A DNA stretch of 64,000 nucleotides, from positions 370,289 to 434,288 of the forward strand of contig JAHJCU010000004.1 in assembly GCA_018812925.1 (NCBI GenBank), read 5' to 3'. Of this stretch, positions 13,732-33,027 are shown piece after piece (positions within the stretch are counted from its first letter, which is position 1; every line of letters starts with the position of its first letter). Position numbers and translations under genes: made by a program. The notes beneath the pieces are model-generated. The model saw only the letters and a program-made list of their open reading frames with translations. It searched no databases and was not told where the DNA came from. Source of the DNA: Candidatus Omnitrophota bacterium (GTDB lineage Bacteria; CAIJMQ01).

Positions 13732-14820
13732 ATGAAAGCGAAATTAGTATTAGAAGACGGTAGTTGTTTTGAAGGTATTTCCATCGGCGTCCCCGGCGAA
13801 AAAATCGGCGAAGTCATCCTCAATACCACAGTTGTAGGTTATCAGGAAATGATGACAGACCCTGCGAATGCGGGCAAAATTTTAGTCCTCACATATCCTC
13901 TTATCGGCAATTATGGTATAGCCGAAAAATTTAACGAATCAAAAAAATGTTGGCTGGAAGGTCTGATTATAAAAGAAAGCAGCAAGATGTATTCCAACTG
14001 GCAGGCGGAAGATAGTTTCGAAAATTTCCTAAGCAAAGAAAAAACCGTTGCAATAAGCGAGATTGATACAAGGACATTGGCTGTTAAAATCAGAGACAAT
14101 GGCGAGATGCTGGGAATAATTTCCACCCAAGATACAAATGAAAAGAAATTGCTACAGAAGTTACAAAAAGCCGCAAAGAATATAAAGAAAAATTTTATAA
14201 AAGAAATTTCCGTAAAAGAAGTCACAAAAATAAAACCCAACTCTTCCGGTTCCAAAATAGCGATATTGGACTTGGGAATTACTAACGGATTTATTAAACA
14301 ATTAAAAACTCTGGGATGTAATATAACTTTATTACCATACGATACAGATGCGGATAAAATATTGAAATCGGGATTTGATGCTGTAGTTATTTCCAATGGT
14401 CCCGAAGCTGACGAAGCAATCCCTATAATCACACAAACTACGAAAAAACTGCTCGGTAAAATTCCTGTTTTAGGAATATCCACGGGACATGAAATCATCG
14501 CTCTTGCGCTAGGTGGGAAACTGAAAAAAATGGCAATGGGACACCGCGGTGTAAACTATCCGGTTAAATCGCCTGATTCGTTTAAAGGGGAAATTACCGT
14601 TCAAAACCATTCATTTATTGTGGATGAAGATTCTATAAAGAATCGAAAAGACACCCGCGTAACTTTGCGCAATGTAAACGATAATTCTATAGAAGAGATG
14701 GAAAGCAAGTCCCTAAAATTTATTTCAACGCAATATTATCCACTCAGTCCGGGGTTTGATGAAGTAAATGAAGTATTTAAAAGATTTTTGAAAATGATGG
14801 AGAAGACCCGTAAATCGTAA
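13732..14820 (+). CDS. carA: Carbamoyl phosphate synthase small subunit CarA, glutaminase residues lost
   Basis: CarA normally hydrolyses glutamine and channels ammonia to CarB. The protein is 362 residues. The N-terminal domain is typical (LVLEDGSCFEGISIG, VVGYQEMMTDP, LTYPLIGNYGI, ISEIDTRTLAVKIRDNG). The C-terminal class I amidotransferase domain keeps its fold markers (ISNGPEADE, MAMGHRGVNYPV, QNHSF) but not its catalytic triad. The nucleophile motif GICLGHQ reads GISTGHE, with Ser250 in place of Cys, and the HPE motif reads QYYPLSP, losing both His and Glu. Vertebrate CPS1, which uses free ammonia, also has Ser at the Cys position. The partner CarB follows. I infer an ammonia-dependent enzyme; moonlighting or a missing glutaminase partner are alternatives. 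Confidence 0.93.
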   Translation: MKAKLVLEDGSCFEGISIGVPGEKIGEVILNTTVVGYQEMMTDPANAGKILVLTYPLIGNYGIAEKFNESKKCWLEGLIIKESSKMYSNWQAEDSFENFLSKEKTVAISEIDTRTLAVKIRDNGEMLGIISTQDTNEKKLLQKLQKAAKNIKKNFIKEISVKEVTKIKPNSSGSKIAILDLGITNGFIKQLKTLGCNITLLPYDTDADKILKSGFDAVVISNGPEADEAIPIITQTTKKLLGKIPVLGISTGHEIIALALGGKLKKMAMGHRGVNYPVKSPDSFKGEITVQNHSFIVDEDSIKNRKDTRVTLRNVNDNSIEEMESKSLKFISTQYYPLSPGFDEVNEVFKRFLKMMEKTRKS

Positions 14821-14977: not shown

Positions 14978-17900
14978 ATGCCTAAAAGAACAGATATACA
15001 TAAAATTTTGATTATAGGGTCGGGGCCGATAATTATAGGTCAGGCCTGTGAATTCGACTATTCCGGTTCTCAAGCGTGTAAAGCGCTACGAGAAGAGGGA
15101 TATCATACCGTTCTTATTAATAGTAATCCGGCTACAATCATGACAGACCCGGGAATGGCGGATAAAACTTATATCGAACCGCTTACTGTGGATATAGTAA
15201 CGGAGATAATAAAGAAAGAAAGACCTGATGCAATTCTTCCCACGCTGGGGGGACAAACAGGTTTGAATCTCGCATATTTCTTAATGAAAGAAGGGATACT
15301 TAAAAAATACGGTGTTGAATCAATAGGCGCAAACATAGAAGCGATATCAAGAGCCGAAGACAGGGATTTATTCAAAAAAGCGATGCAGGAAATAGGAATT
15401 AGCATGCCAAAAAGCGGTATTGCAACAAGCGTTGAAGAAGGGTTGAAAATCGGGCTTAAAATAGGATTCCCGTTGATTTTAAGACTGGCTTATTGCATGG
15501 GCGGAAGCGGCAGTTCTATCGCTTATAACAAAGAAGAATTGGAAGTATTCCTGGCAAAAGGGCTTGAAATAAGTCCTGTAGGACAGGTGCTTGTCGAGCA
15601 ATCGGTTGTGGGGTGGAAAGAAATAGAATTTGAAGTGATGAGAGACAGTGTTGATAATGTGATTATGATTACTTCAATGGAAAATATAGACCCCATGGGA
15701 GTGCATACGGGAGACAGTATTGTAGTCGCCCCTTCTCAAAGTTTAACCAAAGAGGAATACGCGCAATTTGTAAATTTATCCAAGAAGATTATAAGAAAAG
15801 TTGACATAACCGGCGGCGGGGCAAATATTCAGTTTGCCCAAAATCCCGAGAATGGAGATATCGTTATAATAGAAGTAAACCCGCGGCTATCAAGAAGTTC
15901 CGCGCTGGCTTCCAAAGCTACGGGATTTCCTATTGCAAGAGTAGCTACCAAACTTGCCATAGGGCTTACGCTTCCTGAAGTTTTAAACCAAATTACAGGC
16001 AAAACCACTTCGTTCTTTGAACCGACTGTTGATTATTGCGTATTTAAAATATGCAGGTTCACGTTTGAGAAATTTCCTCAAGCCGAAAAAACTTTAAACA
16101 CATCAATGAAAGCCGTAGGCGAAGCAATGTCCATAGGCAGAAATTTCAAGGAAGCGTTTCAAAAGGGAATAAGGTCTACTGAAACGGGAAGGTTCGGATT
16201 TGGGGCTGACGGAAAAGACAAAATATCGGATGAAATGTTAAAATCACCTTCAACAGATTTAATCGAATCAATAAAAGAAAAAATAAGAACCCCTAACGAC
16301 GAGCGGTTATTTAATATCAGATATGGGTTCAAAATGGGGCTTTCAATTGATGAGATATATGAACTTTCAAAAATCGACAAATGGTTTTTAGATAATATGA
16401 AACAACTTATAGGAATAGAAGAAGAGATGAAGCAATTCAGAGGACAGAAGTCAGAATCCAGAGGGCAGAAAACAGAAAACAAAAGACAGAAATCCGAAAT
16501 TACAATTCCTGTAAAACTACTTAAAAAAGCGAAGATGGATGGCTTTTCTGATATACAGATTGCACATCTTATTAATTCCACCGAGCAAAAAGTAAGAGCA
16601 TACAGAAAGAAAAATAACATAAAGGCGGTTTATAAATTGTTAGATACATGCGCGGGAGAATTTAAAGCAGAGCGACCGTATTATTATTCAACCTATGAAA
16701 CAAAAGACGAGAGTATTCCTACGGGGAAAAAGAAAGTCCTTATTTTGGGAGGAGGTCCCAATAGAATAGGTCAAGGCATAGAATTTGATTATTGCTGTGT
16801 TCATGCTTCATATGCTCTGCAGGAAGAAAATGTTGAAAGCATTATGGTCAACTGTAATCCTGAAACCGTTTCCACAGATTATGATACCTCAGACAAATTA
16901 TATTTTGAGCCCTTAACCGTTGAAGATGTATTAAATATTATTGATTTGGAAAAACCTGTGGGAATAATAGTCCAGTTTGGAGGACAGACGCCTCTTAATA
17001 TGTCGGTTCCGCTTTGGAAATTAGGAATTAATATTCTGGGGACAAGCCCTGATTCTATAGATAAAGCCGAAGACAGAAAAAGATTCCAACAGATAATCAA
17101 GAAGCTTAAAATTATCCAACCTGATAACGGAACAGCTAACAGCCTGGAAGAAGCCCAAAAAGTAGCAAATAAAATAGGTTATCCCGTAATTGTAAGACCA
17201 TCCTATGTACTCGGCGGTAGAGCGATGGAAATTGTTTATGATGATGAAGGGTTGGCTGATTTTATGGCAAAAGCCATAGAAGTATCTCCGGGACATCCAA
17301 TACTTGTTGATAAATTCCTTGAAGATGCGATAGAAGTGGATGTGGACGCGATAGCTGACGGGGAAAGATGCGTTATAGGCGGCATTATGGAACATATCGA
17401 GGAAGCGGGTATACATTCAGGTGACAGCGCAATGGTTATCCCGACTTATACGCTATCCAAAGAAATACTAAAAACAATAAAAGAAAATACGTATGCTCTG
17501 GCAAAGGAGTTGGAAGTAAAAGGATTATTAAATATTCAATACGCGGTGAAAGATAATGTTGTATATATTCTTGAAGTAAATCCGAGAGCTAGCAGGACCA
17601 TACCGTTTATAAGTAAAGTTATAGGAGTGCCTCTTGCTAATCTTGCAACAAAAATAATGTTGGGTAAAACGCTTAAAGATTTGGGATTCACCAAGGAAAA
17701 AGAAATCAACTGTGTTGCAGTAAAAGAATCAGTCTTCCCGTTTATACGCTTCCCGGGCGTAGATGCGGTGCTTGGTCCGGAAATGAGATCCACGGGAGAA
17801 GTTATGGGAATAGACTCAACATTCGGCGTTGCATACGCAAAAAGCCAGATAGCGGCAGGACAGAAATTACCTGTAAAGGGAAATGTGTTTATCAGCGTAA

Positions 17901-18289
17901 AAGATGCTGACAAGAAACGAATAGTCCCAATTGCTAAAAAACTTTATGAACTTGGGTTTAAAATCTTTGCAACTTCCGGAACAGCGGATATTATCAAGAA
18001 CAATGGCATAGAAGCCCAAACTCTTCCAAAGCTTCAGGAAGGTATAAGACCAAACATAATTGACCTCATCAAAGACAGCAAAATAGACCTGATGATAAAC
18101 ACTCCCGCAGGCAAAGCAACCAAAGAAGATGAGACAAAAATAAGGTCACACTCAATACTTTATAATGTGCCACTAATAACTACCATTGCCGGCGCACAAG
18201 CGTCCGTAAATGGGATAGAAAACCTGATTAAGAAACCTAAGTTAGACGTAAAATCTCTACAAGAATACCAGAAAGATATAAAAAGTTAA
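14978..18289 (+). CDS. carB: Carbamoyl phosphate synthase large subunit CarB with repeat-derived insert
   Basis: CarB makes carbamoyl phosphate from bicarbonate, ammonia and two ATP for pyrimidines and arginine. It is 1103 residues against about 1070 usually. Both ATP-grasp halves are present: [20 protein letters not shown] with NPATIMTDP at the N-terminus, and [20 protein letters not shown] with [10 protein letters not shown] from about residue 588. The C-terminal MGS-like domain (about 960-1090) contains [18 protein letters not shown]. The excess length is a tract near residues 487-508, [20 protein letters not shown], between the helix ending IEEEMK and the conserved [16 protein letters not shown]. 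It is encoded by a 7-nt repeat array. The insert lies in the oligomerisation domain, where length change may be tolerated. No frameshift was seen. Confidence 0.96.
16438..16500. repeat. R4 heptamer array inserted in frame in carB
   Basis: Nine 7-nt units of CAGAAGT/CAGAATC/CAGAGGG/CAGAAAA type run in the coding strand. The same unit family occurs between genes at 23299-23336 and 55999-56095. Because 63 nt is divisible by both 7 and 3, the array is frame-neutral. Confidence 0.85.
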
Positions 18290-18379: not shown

Positions 18380-19786
18380 ATGAGCGGAATTTTTGGTGTA
18401 ATTTCTAAAAAAAGCGATTGTGCCCAGGATTTATTTTATGGAACAGATTATCATTCCCATTTAGGCACACAATATGGCGGCATGGCAGTTCTCGGAAAAA
18501 AATTCACACGTCAAATACACGATTTAAGTCAAACCCAATTCAAATCTAAATTCTACGAAGATTACAAGAGAATAAAAGGGAATAAAGGAATCGGGGTTAT
18601 AAGTGACTTTGACGAACAGCCAATTTATTTGGAATCAAAATTCGGTCCTTTCTGCATAGTTACAAACGGACTTGTAGGAAACGCTAAAGCACTTATGAAG
18701 AAGTTTCTTAAAGAAGGCGGCTCTTTCAGTGAAGTAAGCAAGGGAGCAGTAAACATTAGCGAACTTGCGGCTAAGTTGATAAGTAAAGGAAATAATTTTG
18801 TGGACGGAATAGAAAAGATGTTTGATGTAATAGACGGTTCCTGTTCACTATTATTACTGAATAAAGAAGGTATCTACGCAGCAAGAGACCGACTCGGATA
18901 TACGCCTCTTGTAATAGGGAAAAAACAAGACGCTTGGGCAGTTACTACTGAAACAAGCGCTTTCCCTAATCTCGGATTTGAAATAACAAAACACTTAGAA
19001 CCGGGAGAAATAGTTCTAATCAATGAAAAGGGGATACTGAATAAAAAACCCGGGGGGAAGACAAACCAGATATGTTCTTTCTTGTGGATATATACGGGGT
19101 TTCCCGCATCAAGTTACGAAGGAATAAATGCAGAAATTACAAGGGAAAGATGCGGAAGAGCTTTAGCAAAAACTGATAAAGATATAGAGGTTGATATAGT
19201 TGCGGGAGTTCCGGATTCGGGCACTGCGCACGCAATAGGATATGCTATGGAATCGGGAAAACCGTACAGACGACCACTTGTTAAATATACCCCGGGATAT
19301 GGGCGAAGTTATACTCCTCCCTCACAACAGACCCGTGATTTAATAGCAAAAATGAAACTCGTTCCCATTAAAGAAATAATTAACGGCAATCGAATTGCAG
19401 TTTGCGAAGATTCTATAGTCAGAGGAACACAGCTTAAAAACTTTACCGTAAAAAAGCTTTGGGAGGGTGGGGCTAAAGAAATTCATGTAAGACCTGCATG
19501 CCCACCACTTATGTTCCCATGTAGATTTAATCTTTCTACACGCAGCATCAATGAACTTGCTGCCCGCAAAGCAATTAGAGCCATTGAAGGTAAAGATATC
19601 AATGATGTTTCGAAATATATGGACCACACTTCTAAAGAGTATAAAAAAATGATTGAATGGATAGCTAAGGATTTAGAAGTTACTACTTTAAGATATCAGA
19701 CTATAGAAAATATGGTAAAAGCTATCGGGCTTGATAAGGAAAAACTCTGCCTCTATTGCTGGACAGGGAAGGAAGCGAAAAAGTAA
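18380..19786 (+). CDS. PurF paralog lacking the glutaminase Cys
   Basis: This 468-residue protein is homologous to amidophosphoribosyltransferase over its full length. The N-terminus is MSGIFGVISKK, so Ser replaces the catalytic Cys2. The glutamine-binding GHxRYST motif is absent, and the GFGNG-type region reads FCIVTNGLVGNA. The family-specific stretch is DLFYGTDYHSHLGTQYGG. The phosphoribosyltransferase half looks intact: VAGVPDSGTAHAIGY, then [13 protein letters not shown] (PRPP loop), then PACPPLMFPC. Cys in ICSFLWIY, PCRFN and LCLYCWTG retain the Fe-S ligand pattern. It may use free ammonia with PRPP, or act as a regulatory or assembly partner of PurF1 at 1299. It follows carB and precedes glmS. 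Confidence 0.88.
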   Translation: MSGIFGVISKKSDCAQDLFYGTDYHSHLGTQYGGMAVLGKKFTRQIHDLSQTQFKSKFYEDYKRIKGNKGIGVISDFDEQPIYLESKFGPFCIVTNGLVGNAKALMKKFLKEGGSFSEVSKGAVNISELAAKLISKGNNFVDGIEKMFDVIDGSCSLLLLNKEGIYAARDRLGYTPLVIGKKQDAWAVTTETSAFPNLGFEITKHLEPGEIVLINEKGILNKKPGGKTNQICSFLWIYTGFPASSYEGINAEITRERCGRALAKTDKDIEVDIVAGVPDSGTAHAIGYAMESGKPYRRPLVKYTPGYGRSYTPPSQQTRDLIAKMKLVPIKEIINGNRIAVCEDSIVRGTQLKNFTVKKLWEGGAKEIHVRPACPPLMFPCRFNLSTRSINELAARKAIRAIEGKDINDVSKYMDHTSKEYKKMIEWIAKDLEVTTLRYQTIENMVKAIGLDKEKLCLYCWTGKEAKK

Positions 19787-21770: not shown

Positions 21771-23297
21771 ATGACAAAAATTATAAAAAAAGTTGGTTTT
21801 GACAATAACAAATATCTCCAAGAACAGAGTGAAGCCATTTTAGAGAGAATCAATATGTTTGAAGGCAAACTTTACTTGGAATTCGGCGGGAAACTTCTAT
21901 ATGATTATCATGCCGCCAGAGTCCTGCCGGGCTATGATCCCAATATTAAGGTGAAGCTTCTGAAAAAATTAAAAAACAAGATTGATATCATCTTATGCAT
22001 ATACGCCGGAGACATTGAAAAAGGTAGAATAAGAGGAGATTTCGGGATAACTTATGATGTAGATGCCTTAAAACTTATCGACGATTTAAGAAGTTACGGT
22101 CTGGATGTCATGGCGGTTGTGATAACGCGTTTTAACAACCAGCCCCAGGTAATTAATTTTAAAAAAAAATTAGAAGCACGCAATATAAAAGTTTATCTTC
22201 ATTCTGCCACTAAAGGATATCCTACAGATGTAGATACAATTGTAAGTGAAGAAGGATACGGCAAGAATTCCTATATAAAAACAAAGAATAGAATTATCGT
22301 GGTTACAGGTCCCGGTCCCGGCAGTGGCAAACTCGCAACTTGTCTTTCGCAGTTTTATCATGATTATAAAAAAGGGATAGAATCGGGATATGCAAAGTTT
22401 GAAACTTTTCCTATCTGGAACATACCTTTAAAACATCCTGTAAATCTTGCTTATGAAGCAGCTACAGCAGACCTCGGAGATATTAACTTAATTGACCCTT
22501 TTCACTTAAAAGCTTACAAAAAAACTGCTGTGAATTATAATCGTGATATAGAGGTTTTTCCCGTGCTTAGAAGCATACTTTCAAAAATAACAGAAGGACA
22601 TCTGCCGTATAAATCCCCGACTGATATGGGCGTAAGTCGAGCTGGGTTTGCCATAGTTGACGACAAGATAGTAAAAGAAGCTTCCAAACAGGAAGTAATA
22701 AGAAGATATTTCAGGCACAAATATGAGAATATTTTAGGCATATCCGACGAGAAGCCCGTAGAAAAAATAATGTTGCTTATGGAAGAGTTGGATATTAAGC
22801 CGGAAGATAGAAAAGCAGTTATTCCCGCAAGGCATGCCGTCTCGGGAGTAAGAAGAAAAACAAAAACAGTTCCCCAAATTAGTTGCGGCGCGGCAATAGA
22901 ATTAAAGAACGGCAAAATAATAACAGGGAAAAATTCTTCACTTATGAGTGCATCCGCAAGTTTAGTTCTTAATACTATAAAAGTGCTAGCTAGAATACCG
23001 GATAAAATTCATCTCTTATCTCCTAATGTATTAAAAAACATTGCGAATTTAAAGAAAGATATCCTAGGATTGAAACTAGATAATCTTGATCTGCAGGAAA
23101 CACTAATTACTTTGAGTATATCAGCGGCAACAAACCCAACGGCTGAAACAGCTATGGAAAAATTAAAAGAACTTTCCGGCTGCGAAGTTCATTTAACTCA
23201 TATTCCTCGACCGGGAGACGAAATGGGGCTTAGAAGGTTGAAAGTTAACCTTACCACTGACAGCATTTTCCCCACCAATAATTTGTATATGCTGTAA
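21771..23297 (+). CDS. DUF1846 domain protein
   Basis: This is a 508-residue protein of the DUF1846 family, conserved in anaerobes and Firmicutes and of unassigned function. It starts KKVGFDNNKYLQEQSEAILE, and the family segments LYLEFGGKLLYDYHAARVLP and RGDFGITYDVD follow. A glycine-rich loop, VVTGPGPGSGKLATCLSQF, resembles a nucleotide-binding site. APARHAVS-type IPARHAVSGVRRKTK comes later. The C-terminus has the conserved HLTHIPRPGDEMGLRRLKVN. It lies 4 nt downstream of glmS, so it is probably co-transcribed, possibly linking it to amino sugar metabolism. That link is positional only. Confidence 0.9.
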   Translation: MTKIIKKVGFDNNKYLQEQSEAILERINMFEGKLYLEFGGKLLYDYHAARVLPGYDPNIKVKLLKKLKNKIDIILCIYAGDIEKGRIRGDFGITYDVDALKLIDDLRSYGLDVMAVVITRFNNQPQVINFKKKLEARNIKVYLHSATKGYPTDVDTIVSEEGYGKNSYIKTKNRIIVVTGPGPGSGKLATCLSQFYHDYKKGIESGYAKFETFPIWNIPLKHPVNLAYEAATADLGDINLIDPFHLKAYKKTAVNYNRDIEVFPVLRSILSKITEGHLPYKSPTDMGVSRAGFAIVDDKIVKEASKQEVIRRYFRHKYENILGISDEKPVEKIMLLMEELDIKPEDRKAVIPARHAVSGVRRKTKTVPQISCGAAIELKNGKIITGKNSSLMSASASLVLNTIKVLARIPDKIHLLSPNVLKNIANLKKDILGLKLDNLDLQETLITLSISAATNPTAETAMEKLKELSGCEVHLTHIPRPGDEMGLRRLKVNLTTDSIFPTNNLYML

Positions 23298-30025: not shown

Positions 30026-31309
30026 TTATTGAATATATTCTATTTTCCCGCCCACTATTGTACAAATAGTTTTTCCTTTAAAATTCCAGCCGATAAAGGG
30101 GGAGTTTTGGGAGAGGGACTTGATATCTTCTAATTTAAACTGCCACTGTTTTTTAGTGTTGATAATTGTAAGGTCTGCGTCTTCGCCAACTTTGATTTTG
30201 CCTTTCTTCAAGTTAAGTATTTTGGCTGGATTGCTCGTCAGTTTTTCAACTGCTTCGGATAAGGTGAGTATTTTTCTATCAACCAACTGCTTCATAATAA
30301 GTGGAAGTGTGGTCTGAAGCCCGAGCATTCCAAACGGAGCATTTTCATATTCAAACTCTTTCTCTGTGGAAAGATGCGGAGCATGGTCGGAAGCAATTAC
30401 ATCAATTGTCCCGTCTTTTAAACCTTTTTCTATCGCTTTTATGTCTTCCTTTGTTCTTAAGGGGGGATTAACTTTTGTATTGGTATCAAATGTTCTGACC
30501 GCTTCTTCGGTTAGTGTAAAGTGATGCGGTGTTACTTCGCAGGTAACTTTCACGCCTCTTTTCTTTGCTTCGCGGATAAGTTCCACCGAGCGTTTTGTTG
30601 ATACGTGACAGATATGTAGACGCGCTCCCGTTAATTCTGCAAGCAATAAATCTCTTGCAACCATTATTTCTTCTGATTCTTTAGGTATTCCCGAAAGTCC
30701 TAAGACTGTGGAAGTATAACCTTCGTTCATACTTCCGCCCAACGATAAACTTCCGTCTTCGCAGTGGCCTATTATCGCAACATCAAGCATAAGCGAATAT
30801 TCCATCGCCCGACGCATTAACAGTGAATCTCCAACGCCATTGCCGTCGTCAGAAAAACCAATCGCGCCCATACTGGCAAGTTCAGCCATCTCAGAAAGCG
30901 TTGCACCTTTTCGCCCCTTTGTTATTGCAGCTATCGGATACACATTACAATGAGCTTTTTTTGCTTTTTCCAATACAAAATTCAGTGTGGATGCATCATC
31001 TATGGCGGGAGTCGTATTGGGCATACAACATATACTTGTAAACCCGCCGTGAACTGCGGCTATACTGCCAGAGGCAATAGTCTCCACATTTTCCCTTCCG
31101 GGTTCGCGAAGATGTGTATGCATATCAATTAACCCTGGCAAAACTATCTTGCCTTTTGCATCCAAAATTTTTGCGCCGTCTGATTTCAGATTTTTCCCTA
31201 TTTTGGAAAACTTTCCGCCTTCAATGTAAATATCTAAAACTTTATCCGTTTTGGAAGATGGGTCAATTACCCTGCCATTTTTAATTAGAATTGCGCCTCT
31301 TTTTGCCAT
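30026..31309 (-). CDS. pyrC: Dihydroorotase PyrC (class I)
   Basis: Dihydroorotase cyclises carbamoyl aspartate to dihydroorotate. About 427 residues fits the large zinc class I type. The metal site begins LPGLIDMHTHLREPGREN (H-x-H). ATTRGRKGATLSEMAE-like AAITKGRKGATLSEMAEL is followed by the His-bearing IIGHCEDGSL and HICHVSTKRSVELI, and by VIASDHAPHLSTEKE with the catalytic Asp. The start ATG at 31309 overlaps the TGA of pyrB (TGATG), showing translational coupling. A GTG one codon upstream is the other possibility. It is the last gene of a pyrR-pyrB-pyrC operon. Confidence 0.96.
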   Translation of the reverse strand: MAKRGAILIKNGRVIDPSSKTDKVLDIYIEGGKFSKIGKNLKSDGAKILDAKGKIVLPGLIDMHTHLREPGRENVETIASGSIAAVHGGFTSICCMPNTTPAIDDASTLNFVLEKAKKAHCNVYPIAAITKGRKGATLSEMAELASMGAIGFSDDGNGVGDSLLMRRAMEYSLMLDVAIIGHCEDGSLSLGGSMNEGYTSTVLGLSGIPKESEEIMVARDLLLAELTGARLHICHVSTKRSVELIREAKKRGVKVTCEVTPHHFTLTEEAVRTFDTNTKVNPPLRTKEDIKAIEKGLKDGTIDVIASDHAPHLSTEKEFEYENAPFGMLGLQTTLPLIMKQLVDRKILTLSEAVEKLTSNPAKILNLKKGKIKVGEDADLTIINTKKQWQFKLEDIKSLSQNSPFIGWNFKGKTICTIVGGKIEYIQ

Positions 31310-32340
31310 CACGGTTTCTTTCCTCCGGTTCTGCGCCCCACAGCCTTGCCTCGCCTTACAGACGAAGCTGACTGCGAGGCAGAGGTTGGCGCCCCTCCGA
31401 GTAAAATATAAAGCACAGCCATCCTAACAGCTACGCCATTTGTAACTTGAGCCAAGATAACAGAATTCTTGCTGTCAGCAACTTCAGGGTCTATTTCTAC
31501 ACCTCTATTTATAGGACCGGGGTGCATAATAAGAACATCTTTCTTTGCTTTACTCAATCTTTCCATCGTGACTCCAAAGCGCTGCCTATATTCTCTTAGC
31601 GATGGGAAAAAACTGCCTTTTCCCGCCTCGCCGGAGACGGCAAGTCGGGGCTGGTGTCTTTCTGTCTGGATACGCAGAGCCATCAGCACATCCATATCTT
31701 CTATTACTTCATCAAGTGAGTTAAATATCTTTACAGGCATATTCTCAAGATACGCAGGTATGAATGTCGGAGGAGCTACTATGAAAACCTCCGCTCCCAT
31801 TTTATTAAGTCCCCAGATATTTGAGCGAGCAACTCTGGAAAAGCGAATATCGCCTATTATTGCAACTTTAAGACCTTTAAGTTTTCTTTTCTTTTCGCGT
31901 ATCGTGAACATATCAAGAAGTGCCTGCGTAGGATGTTCATGCGCACCGTCTCCTGCGTTAATTACGGGAACTGATAATTTTTTTGCCAAAAGATGCGGGA
32001 TCCCGGCACCGCTGTGTCGGACTACAACGGCATCTATTTTCATTGCTTCAATGTTTAGCGCAGTATCAAGAAGAGTTTCATTTTTAAGAACTGAAGAACC
32101 TGGTGTGGAAAAATTTACCGTATCAGCAGAAAGTCGTTTCTCTGCCAGCTCGAAAGATATGCGTGTGCGTGTTGATGGTTCAAAAAAGAGATTAACTATT
32201 GTTTTTCCTCGTAATGTCGGAACTTTTTTGATAGGACGTTCGGAGATTTCCTTGAAAGAAATCGAAGTGTCTAGAATATGAATGATTTCATCTGGATTTA
32301 GTTCTTCAATACCAAGAAGGTCTTTTCTATTCCAGTTCAT
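31309..32340 (-). CDS. pyrB: Aspartate carbamoyltransferase catalytic subunit PyrB with two palindrome inserts
   Basis: PyrB condenses carbamoyl phosphate with aspartate. It is 343 residues against the usual 305-315. The carbamoyl phosphate loop is [15 protein letters not shown]. The 80s-loop region has [16 protein letters not shown], then [18 protein letters not shown] and [13 protein letters not shown]. The extra length comes from two palindromic inserts. One (31622-31650, residues about 231-240) adds [12 protein letters not shown] before FFPSLREY. The other (31346-31382, residues about 320-331) forms part of a tail after the normal end, YILLGGAP. Neither disrupts known active-site motifs. 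No PyrI regulatory subunit is adjacent. The start overlaps the pyrR stop by one base. Confidence 0.95.
31346..31382. repeat. Pal-B palindromic element in the pyrB C-terminus
   Basis: TGCCTCGC at 31347-31354 pairs with GCGAGGCA at 31374-31381. The reverse complement carries CGTCTGTAAGGCGAGGCAAG, related to the copies at 57421 and 31622. It encodes part of the non-conserved tail [14 protein letters not shown]. Confidence 0.7.
31622..31650. repeat. Pal-B element inside pyrB
   Basis: On the coding strand GACTTGCC-GTCTCC-GGCGAGGCGGG matches the element at 57421-57451 (GACTTGACTCGCC-GTCTTT-GGCGAGGCAGG) with a 4-nt difference in the first arm. It is in frame and encodes residues of a segment absent from ordinary PyrB. 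Confidence 0.7.
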
Positions 32341-32885
32341 CAGGGTTTAGCTATTTCTTCTTTATCTAACTTCTGTTTTATTGCTATTACTCCCTCTTTC
32401 CCGTCTATCTCTTTAAGTTTTACTTCCACAATCTCGCCTGCATTTACAGTCATTTTCTTTGACACATAATCGGGCTGGATAGGTAATTCTCTCTCTCCTC
32501 TGTCGATCAAAACAGCAAGGCGGATAGAGGAAGGTCTACCGAAATCTATTAAAGCGTCCATTGCCGCTCTTATGGTTCTGCCCGTAAAGAGAACATCGTC
32601 GACAAGTATAACATTTTTCCCGGTAATATCGAAATCTATTTCGGTTTCACGCACTATTGGATCAGGTCCCACAGAAGTAAAATCATCACGATAAAGAGTA
32701 ATATCAAGAATCCCTAAGGGAATCTCTATACCAGTTTCCTTTTTTATTCCTTTCACCATCCTGGAAGCAAGTATGTTTCCCCTTGACCTGATACCAACAA
32801 TCACAAGTTCTGAAAGGGAAGGGAAATCTCTGATAACCTGATTAGTTATAATCTTCCAAGCTTCTGCCAATTCTTTCTCTTCCAT
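32340..32885 (-). CDS. pyrR: PyrR: bifunctional pyr operon regulator / uracil phosphoribosyltransferase
   Basis: PyrR binds UMP and pyr mRNA to promote attenuation in many bacteria, and has weak uracil phosphoribosyltransferase activity. From the ATG at 32885 the protein is about 181 residues, the usual size, starting [20 protein letters not shown]. Signature parts are [29 protein letters not shown] and the PRPP loop [20 protein letters not shown]. Longer starts (33026 or 32903) would run through or onto the predicted promoter. No PyrR-binding anti-antiterminator consensus was recognised upstream, so control may be at an unseen site or lost. It is the first gene of pyrR-pyrB-pyrC, with overlapping stops and starts. 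Confidence 0.93.
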
Positions 32886-32910
32886 CACGTTTTTGCCAAT
32901 CATTCGGTAA

Positions 32911-32939
32911 AAATTATCAGAATCGAGGCTAATAGTCAA
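32911..32939 (-). promoter_or_regulatory. Sigma-70-type promoter of the pyrRBC operon
   Basis: On the minus strand TTGACT (32939-32934), a spacer of exactly 17 nt, then TAATTT (32916-32911). Transcription would begin near 32904, about 20 nt before the ATG at 32885. This favours the short PyrR start. Confidence 0.55.
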
Positions 32940-33027
32940 ATGGGAATGCCTTGGGTGCTGTTTTGTTTGACTGGGAAAAAGGAAAATGTTATGCTTTCGC
33001 CAGTAAATCGTTTTTGATTTACTCATT

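Follow-up and report, generated by a model that had tools for sequence, protein, structure and literature searches.

Bacterial carbamoyl phosphate synthetases (CPSs) are all considered to draw their nitrogen from glutamine under physiological conditions (PMC6245113). Three described systems bear on the locus reported here: bacterial CarAB (CPS II; TIGR01368 and TIGR01369), vertebrate CPS I (CPS1), in which Ser occupies the position of the glutaminase Cys (PMC4655335), and the split CPS of Aquifex aeolicus, with separate GLN, CPS.A and CPS.B (PMC6022934). Our literature searches turned up neither a description of a bacterial CarA with a dead glutaminase nor any work on CPS in Omnitrophota. We have studied the gene pair carA2-carB2 in a stretch of 64,000 nucleotides (the window: positions 370,289 to 434,288 of contig JAHJCU010000004.1, assembly GCA_018812925.1) from a Candidatus Omnitrophota bacterium; the genome, of Candidatus Ratteibacteria, is a metagenome-assembled genome (MAG) of 1.47 Mb with the window in its contig 11. 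The pair resembles bacterial CarAB in sequence, fold, gene arrangement and the catalytic residues of both CarB halves, and differs from it in a small subunit without catalytic triad, with a changed glutamine pocket and with Glu at the Gly243 position. Like CPS1, it retains an inactive class I glutaminase domain beside a competent synthetase; unlike CPS1, it has lost His and Glu in addition to Cys, its host is a bacterium, its subunits are separate open reading frames (ORFs) and not one polypeptide, and its genome has, in addition, a live second CarA paired with a half-length CarB. We consider it somewhat probable that carA2-carB2 encodes a CPS that works without glutamine hydrolysis, free ammonia being the likely substrate, and that the second set, CarA1 with the N-terminal CarB half CarB1N, is a front end fed by glutamine and relies on the CarB2 C-half. 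A pairing of dead CarA and competent CarB that is conserved throughout a candidate phylum would give bacteria a counterpart of vertebrate CPS I.

The dead small subunit and its synthetase

The carA2 ORF (13732..14820, forward strand; 362 aa) matches TIGR01368, the CarA family, at 363.7 bits (cut-off 307.35), its product contains both Pfam CarA domains, PF00988 and PF00117 (class I GATase), and it lies next to carB2, as a carA should; of the Cys-His-Glu triad, also expected of the family, all three residues are gone. In the alignment to E. coli CarA (sequence from the PDB) the position of Cys269 is occupied by Ser250 (codon TCC, 14479..14481, forward strand), the same residue as in CPS1, and the His-Pro-Glu motif is replaced by Tyr-Pro-Leu (14737..14745, forward strand), with Tyr336 (TAT) at His353 and Glu355 falling on a one-residue gap beside Leu338. 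Residues of the glutamine pocket are altered as well (Ala45 for Ser47, Glu225 for Gly243, Glu254 for Gln273), and Pro360 is replaced by Phe342; that the changes at Pro360 and His361 open an entry path for ammonia is a guess. The closest sequence match in the PDB is the C269S mutant of E. coli CarA (1c30), on which the AlphaFold model of CarA2 (pLDDT 92.7) superimposes with a TM score of 0.94, as compared with 0.86-0.87 for CPS1. An earlier note, made from the letters of the window alone, had reported the loss of the triad (GISTGHE, YPL) in an otherwise well-kept domain, and alignment, family score and predicted fold bear it out. Judging from these residues, Cys-His-Glu glutaminase activity is impossible for CarA2, which is nevertheless an intact, constrained ORF (dN/dS within the family 0.06-0.23) with a predicted CarA fold.

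The family consists of four genomes, the window's own and three others (G001, G002, G003) whose CarA2 proteins, 82-91% identical, likewise lack the triad, so that CarA2 is dead in 4/4. A genome scan returned 46 loci with at least 48% identity to CarA2, mostly from Omnitrophota; the triad is present in none, and a single locus (L126) keeps the Cys without the rest. The CarA2 sequences form one clade of 50, mostly Omnitrophota (SH-aLRT 99), in which Cys269 is lost in 49/50, His353 and the HPE motif in 50/50, and Gly243 has become Glu in 50/50; the conservation of the substitution across the clade, which the earlier note had proposed to check, is therefore borne out. Among 237 sampled Omnitrophota species, 24 have CarA2 at a strict cut-off (1e-98) that misses diverged dead CarAs such as that of genome G378. 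Set against vertebrate CPS I, the convergent loss put forward in the earlier note holds; among bacteria, the tree places the loss in CarA2 in one old clade common to Ratteibacteria and many Omnitrophota, to which a few further losses elsewhere are to be added. Since the genome is a MAG, a pseudogene or an assembly or sequencing error had to be considered, but it is scarcely credible given the loss of the triad in four family genomes and a clade of 50 sequences, the intact ORFs, dN/dS well below 1 and the high-confidence fold.

Other Cys-less CarA homologues occur outside the clade, in Goldbacteria, Margulisbacteria and others (L021/L101, L068/L092, L154, L155, L156/L171, L162/L181, L297:3935-4933); the Cys losses in these lineages are at least partly independent. 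Within the clade, the CarA2-CarB2 of MAGs titled Clostridia, Pseudomonadota or Proteobacteria (L110, L111, L112, L114, L123) group with Ratteibacteria and Omnitrophota, through either transfer or wrong labels.

The large subunit, carB2 (14978..18289, forward strand; PRK05294, 1610 bits), is full-length, with both synthetase halves and the MGS domain. Its N-half retains R129, R169, E215, H243, N283, Q285, E299, N301, R303 and R306, the matching residues of the C-half (carbamate-phosphorylating and allosteric domains; 16700..18286, forward strand) are kept too, and the N-half catalytic residues are intact in 45/45 CarB2 sequences. A degenerate N-half is not supported, as only second-shell changes are seen. 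Ammonia-dependent CPS (CPS I type) is defined by activity on ammonia but not on glutamine, by activation through N-acetylglutamate, and by an inactivated glutaminase combined with intact synthetase halves. This last combination is present at the locus; the single polypeptide of that type is absent. The oligomerisation domain of carB2 contains in frame a CAGAAAACAGAAGACAG-like repeat (window 16440-16495), which is also seen in a hisH-like gene (L007:17958-17984), with a similar stretch in carB1.

The second CarA and the half-length CarB1

Between 5.2 and 2.3 kb upstream of the window start lie carA1, which is intact, and carB1, which has only half the usual length. The idea that carA2 is the organism's only CarA was thus mistaken, and the second intact carA that the earlier note named as fatal to its proposal does exist, 5 kb before the window, but it is followed by an N-half CarB only. 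carA1 adjoins gdh and has the motifs GICFGQQ and FHPEA; carB1 is only 573 aa long and runs directly into guaA; its product is made up of the carboxyphosphate and oligomerisation domains. With the whole of CarB2 as query, no separate CarB C-half was found in the window's genome.

This arrangement is not peculiar to one assembly. Half CarB1 is present in all three family genomes where carA1 was found and in about 48 of the genomes examined, and it is common in the 237-species sample. Most of the 45 genomes searched for degenerate CarA carry a second CarA, whose carB, where readable, is usually an N-half ending ...TPYYYSTYE. The end point is identical in 22 sequences, which rules out an assembly error, and corresponds approximately to residue 552 of E. 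coli CarB, where the region in contact with the small subunit ends (PMC6245113). The triad and pocket are kept in 25/25 CarA1 of the half-CarB set and the N-half catalytic residues in 22/22 half CarB1. A decaying remnant is ruled out by the intact triads and by dN/dS of 0.04-0.18 for the CarA1-CarB1N genes; all genes of both sets are under purifying selection (0.04-0.23).

Lone C-halves and a proposed exchange of front ends

The C-half of CarB2 was used to search 50 genomes, nearly all chosen for half CarB1. A full CarB2, or an equivalent with dead CarA, is present in 23, a lone C-half (ORFs of about 525 aa) in another 23, all Omnitrophota, and no C-half in 1; the remaining 3 fit neither state, namely G492, with half CarB1 and a full CarB of another type, and the fragmented G475 and G534. 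CarA2 occurs in 15/15 of the genomes with full CarB2 that were read in this sample and in 0/23 of those with a lone C-half. The apparent counter-example G378, with a full CarB2-like protein and no CarA2 match, was discarded, as the pyr operon of this genome encodes a different, diverged CarA that lacks GICLGHQ and HPE. The genomes with carA1, carB-N and lone carB-C match the three-gene make-up of Aquifex, with separate genes for the two CarB halves in 23 Omnitrophota. The window's genome departs from it: the N-half CarB1N is a separate gene, but the sole C-half is joined in one protein to a second N-half, accompanied by a dead CarA. A further difference from Aquifex is the grouping of the lone C-halves, which fall with CarB2 rather than with the CarB whose C-half is gone.

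The distribution of lone C-halves within the CarB2 clade is scattered and takes 12 changes on a tree of 74 rows, at least 9 of them forced by supported branches; most of the 20 loci fetched occupy the carA2-carB2 position of relatives, either after pyrR-pyrB-pyrC and the same PHP-like ORF or ahead of purF-guaA. Because of this scatter and position, the trees and loci most likely record that carA2 and the CarB2 N-half were lost jointly, in place and many times, with retention of the C-half. The repeated joint absence in the presence of half CarB1 suggests that CPS evolves by exchange of front-end modules. We regard as a serious possibility, a little short of probable, that the CPS of Ratteibacteria and Omnitrophota is modular, with the CarB2 C-half as back end and CarA1-CarB1N and CarA2-CarB2N as interchangeable front ends of a mixed complex, lineages keeping both or shedding either.

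The same distribution bears on two alternatives. In the first, CarA2-CarB2 is an ammonia CPS, and CarA1-CarB1N is an independent glutamine CPS of half size that is self-sufficient, both phosphorylations being carried out by a homodimer of CarB1N. All N-half catalytic residues are kept in CarB1N, and each isolated half of the Aquifex CPS performs both partial reactions (PMC6022934); however, a C-half is found somewhere in 49/50 genomes and stays where CarA2-CarB2N is missing, and the precedent of a half-size CPS in M. smithii is disputed (PMC11915815), so that we hold this explanation to be unlikely. The simpler notion of two complete CPSs is doubtful, because CarA1 is paired only with an N-terminal CarB half. 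In the second alternative CarA2 and the CarB2 N-half have no catalytic role and act as a scaffold, CarB2 serving only as a carbamate kinase for CarA1-CarB1N. A dead CarA2, absent along with the N-half in 23 genomes, would fit, but the catalytic residues retained in 45/45 CarB2 N-halves and the occurrence of CarA2-CarB2 without CarA1 or CarB1 in some genomes make it rather improbable.

An ammonia-fed CPS is, on the residues and gene content, the likeliest function of CarA2-CarB2, because the triad is dead, the CarB2 residues are kept and some Omnitrophota show no other CarA: none was detected in 16/40 CarA2 genomes, and five of these 16 show one CarB only. ATC is present in 41/41 and OTC in 37/41 genomes of a set overlapping these 40. 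On the same grounds the ammonia-using CPS of the earlier note is partly supported, though not as that of an organism lacking a functional glutaminase. In the scheme that we favour, the role of CarA2 would be structural, as partner to the CarB2 N-half, which would convert bicarbonate, ATP and ammonia to carbamate; CarA1 and CarB1N, with no C-half of their own, would make carbamate through glutamine hydrolysis; and the CarB2 C-half would phosphorylate carbamate from either source, most likely being borrowed by CarB1N, so that two exchangeable front ends, both held by the window's genome, would share one back end. Both the ammonia substrate and the working complex of CarB1N with the CarB2 C-half are what we infer. 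Ammonia entry that bypasses the glutaminase path has a precedent, because E. coli CPS shows normal activity on external ammonia when its tunnel is blocked or perforated (PMC4655335); CPS1 may possess another tunnel (PMC4655335).

Several points weigh against this scheme. For E. coli CPS, ammonia has to be present at very high levels (PMC6245113), and an ammonium transporter is present in only 2/15 of the genomes with CarA2 alone (G307-G326, G336, G340, G517 set), as compared with 15/19 with both front ends and 10/12 with a lone C-half. Glutamine synthetase is present in 12/15 CarA2-only genomes, which rules out glutamine shortage as a reason for ammonia use. In genomes like the window's the CarB2 C-half is fused to its own N-half, with no obvious route to it for CarB1N; the Aquifex halves, as noted, each perform both reactions; and, most genomes being MAGs, absences may reflect incompleteness. 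The natural half-enzymes offer material for testing the division of work between the homologous CarB halves.

Genes around carA2-carB2

Beside carB2 lies purX (18380..19786, forward strand), a PurF paralogue with Ser for the N-terminal Cys and the PRPP loop kept, and thus a second dead glutaminase in the cluster. It bears on a further explanation, that ammonia is supplied to CarA2-CarB2 by another glutaminase bound in trans: some carA2-carB2 loci stand beside purF and guaA, which encode glutamine enzymes, but the neighbour in the window is itself glutaminase-dead and neighbours vary between lineages, leaving it quite improbable. The PurF paralogue occurs in about 23/262 genera sampled (L048-L067, L107, L121, L135, L183), often beside carA2-carB2; in most copies Cys1 is replaced by Ser, Gly, Asp or Ala and the Arg73 region is lost, but the PRPP loop EDSIVRGTQ is retained.

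The pyrimidine genes pyrC, pyrB and pyrR, which use carbamoyl phosphate, are located in the window at 30026..33026 on the reverse strand; in many Omnitrophota carA2-carB2 is directly behind them. Finally, a DUF1846 protein (window 21771-23297) recurs beside clusters of carA1-half carB or carA2-carB2, with loci elsewhere at L115, L225-L227, L233, L235, L238, L278 and L279.
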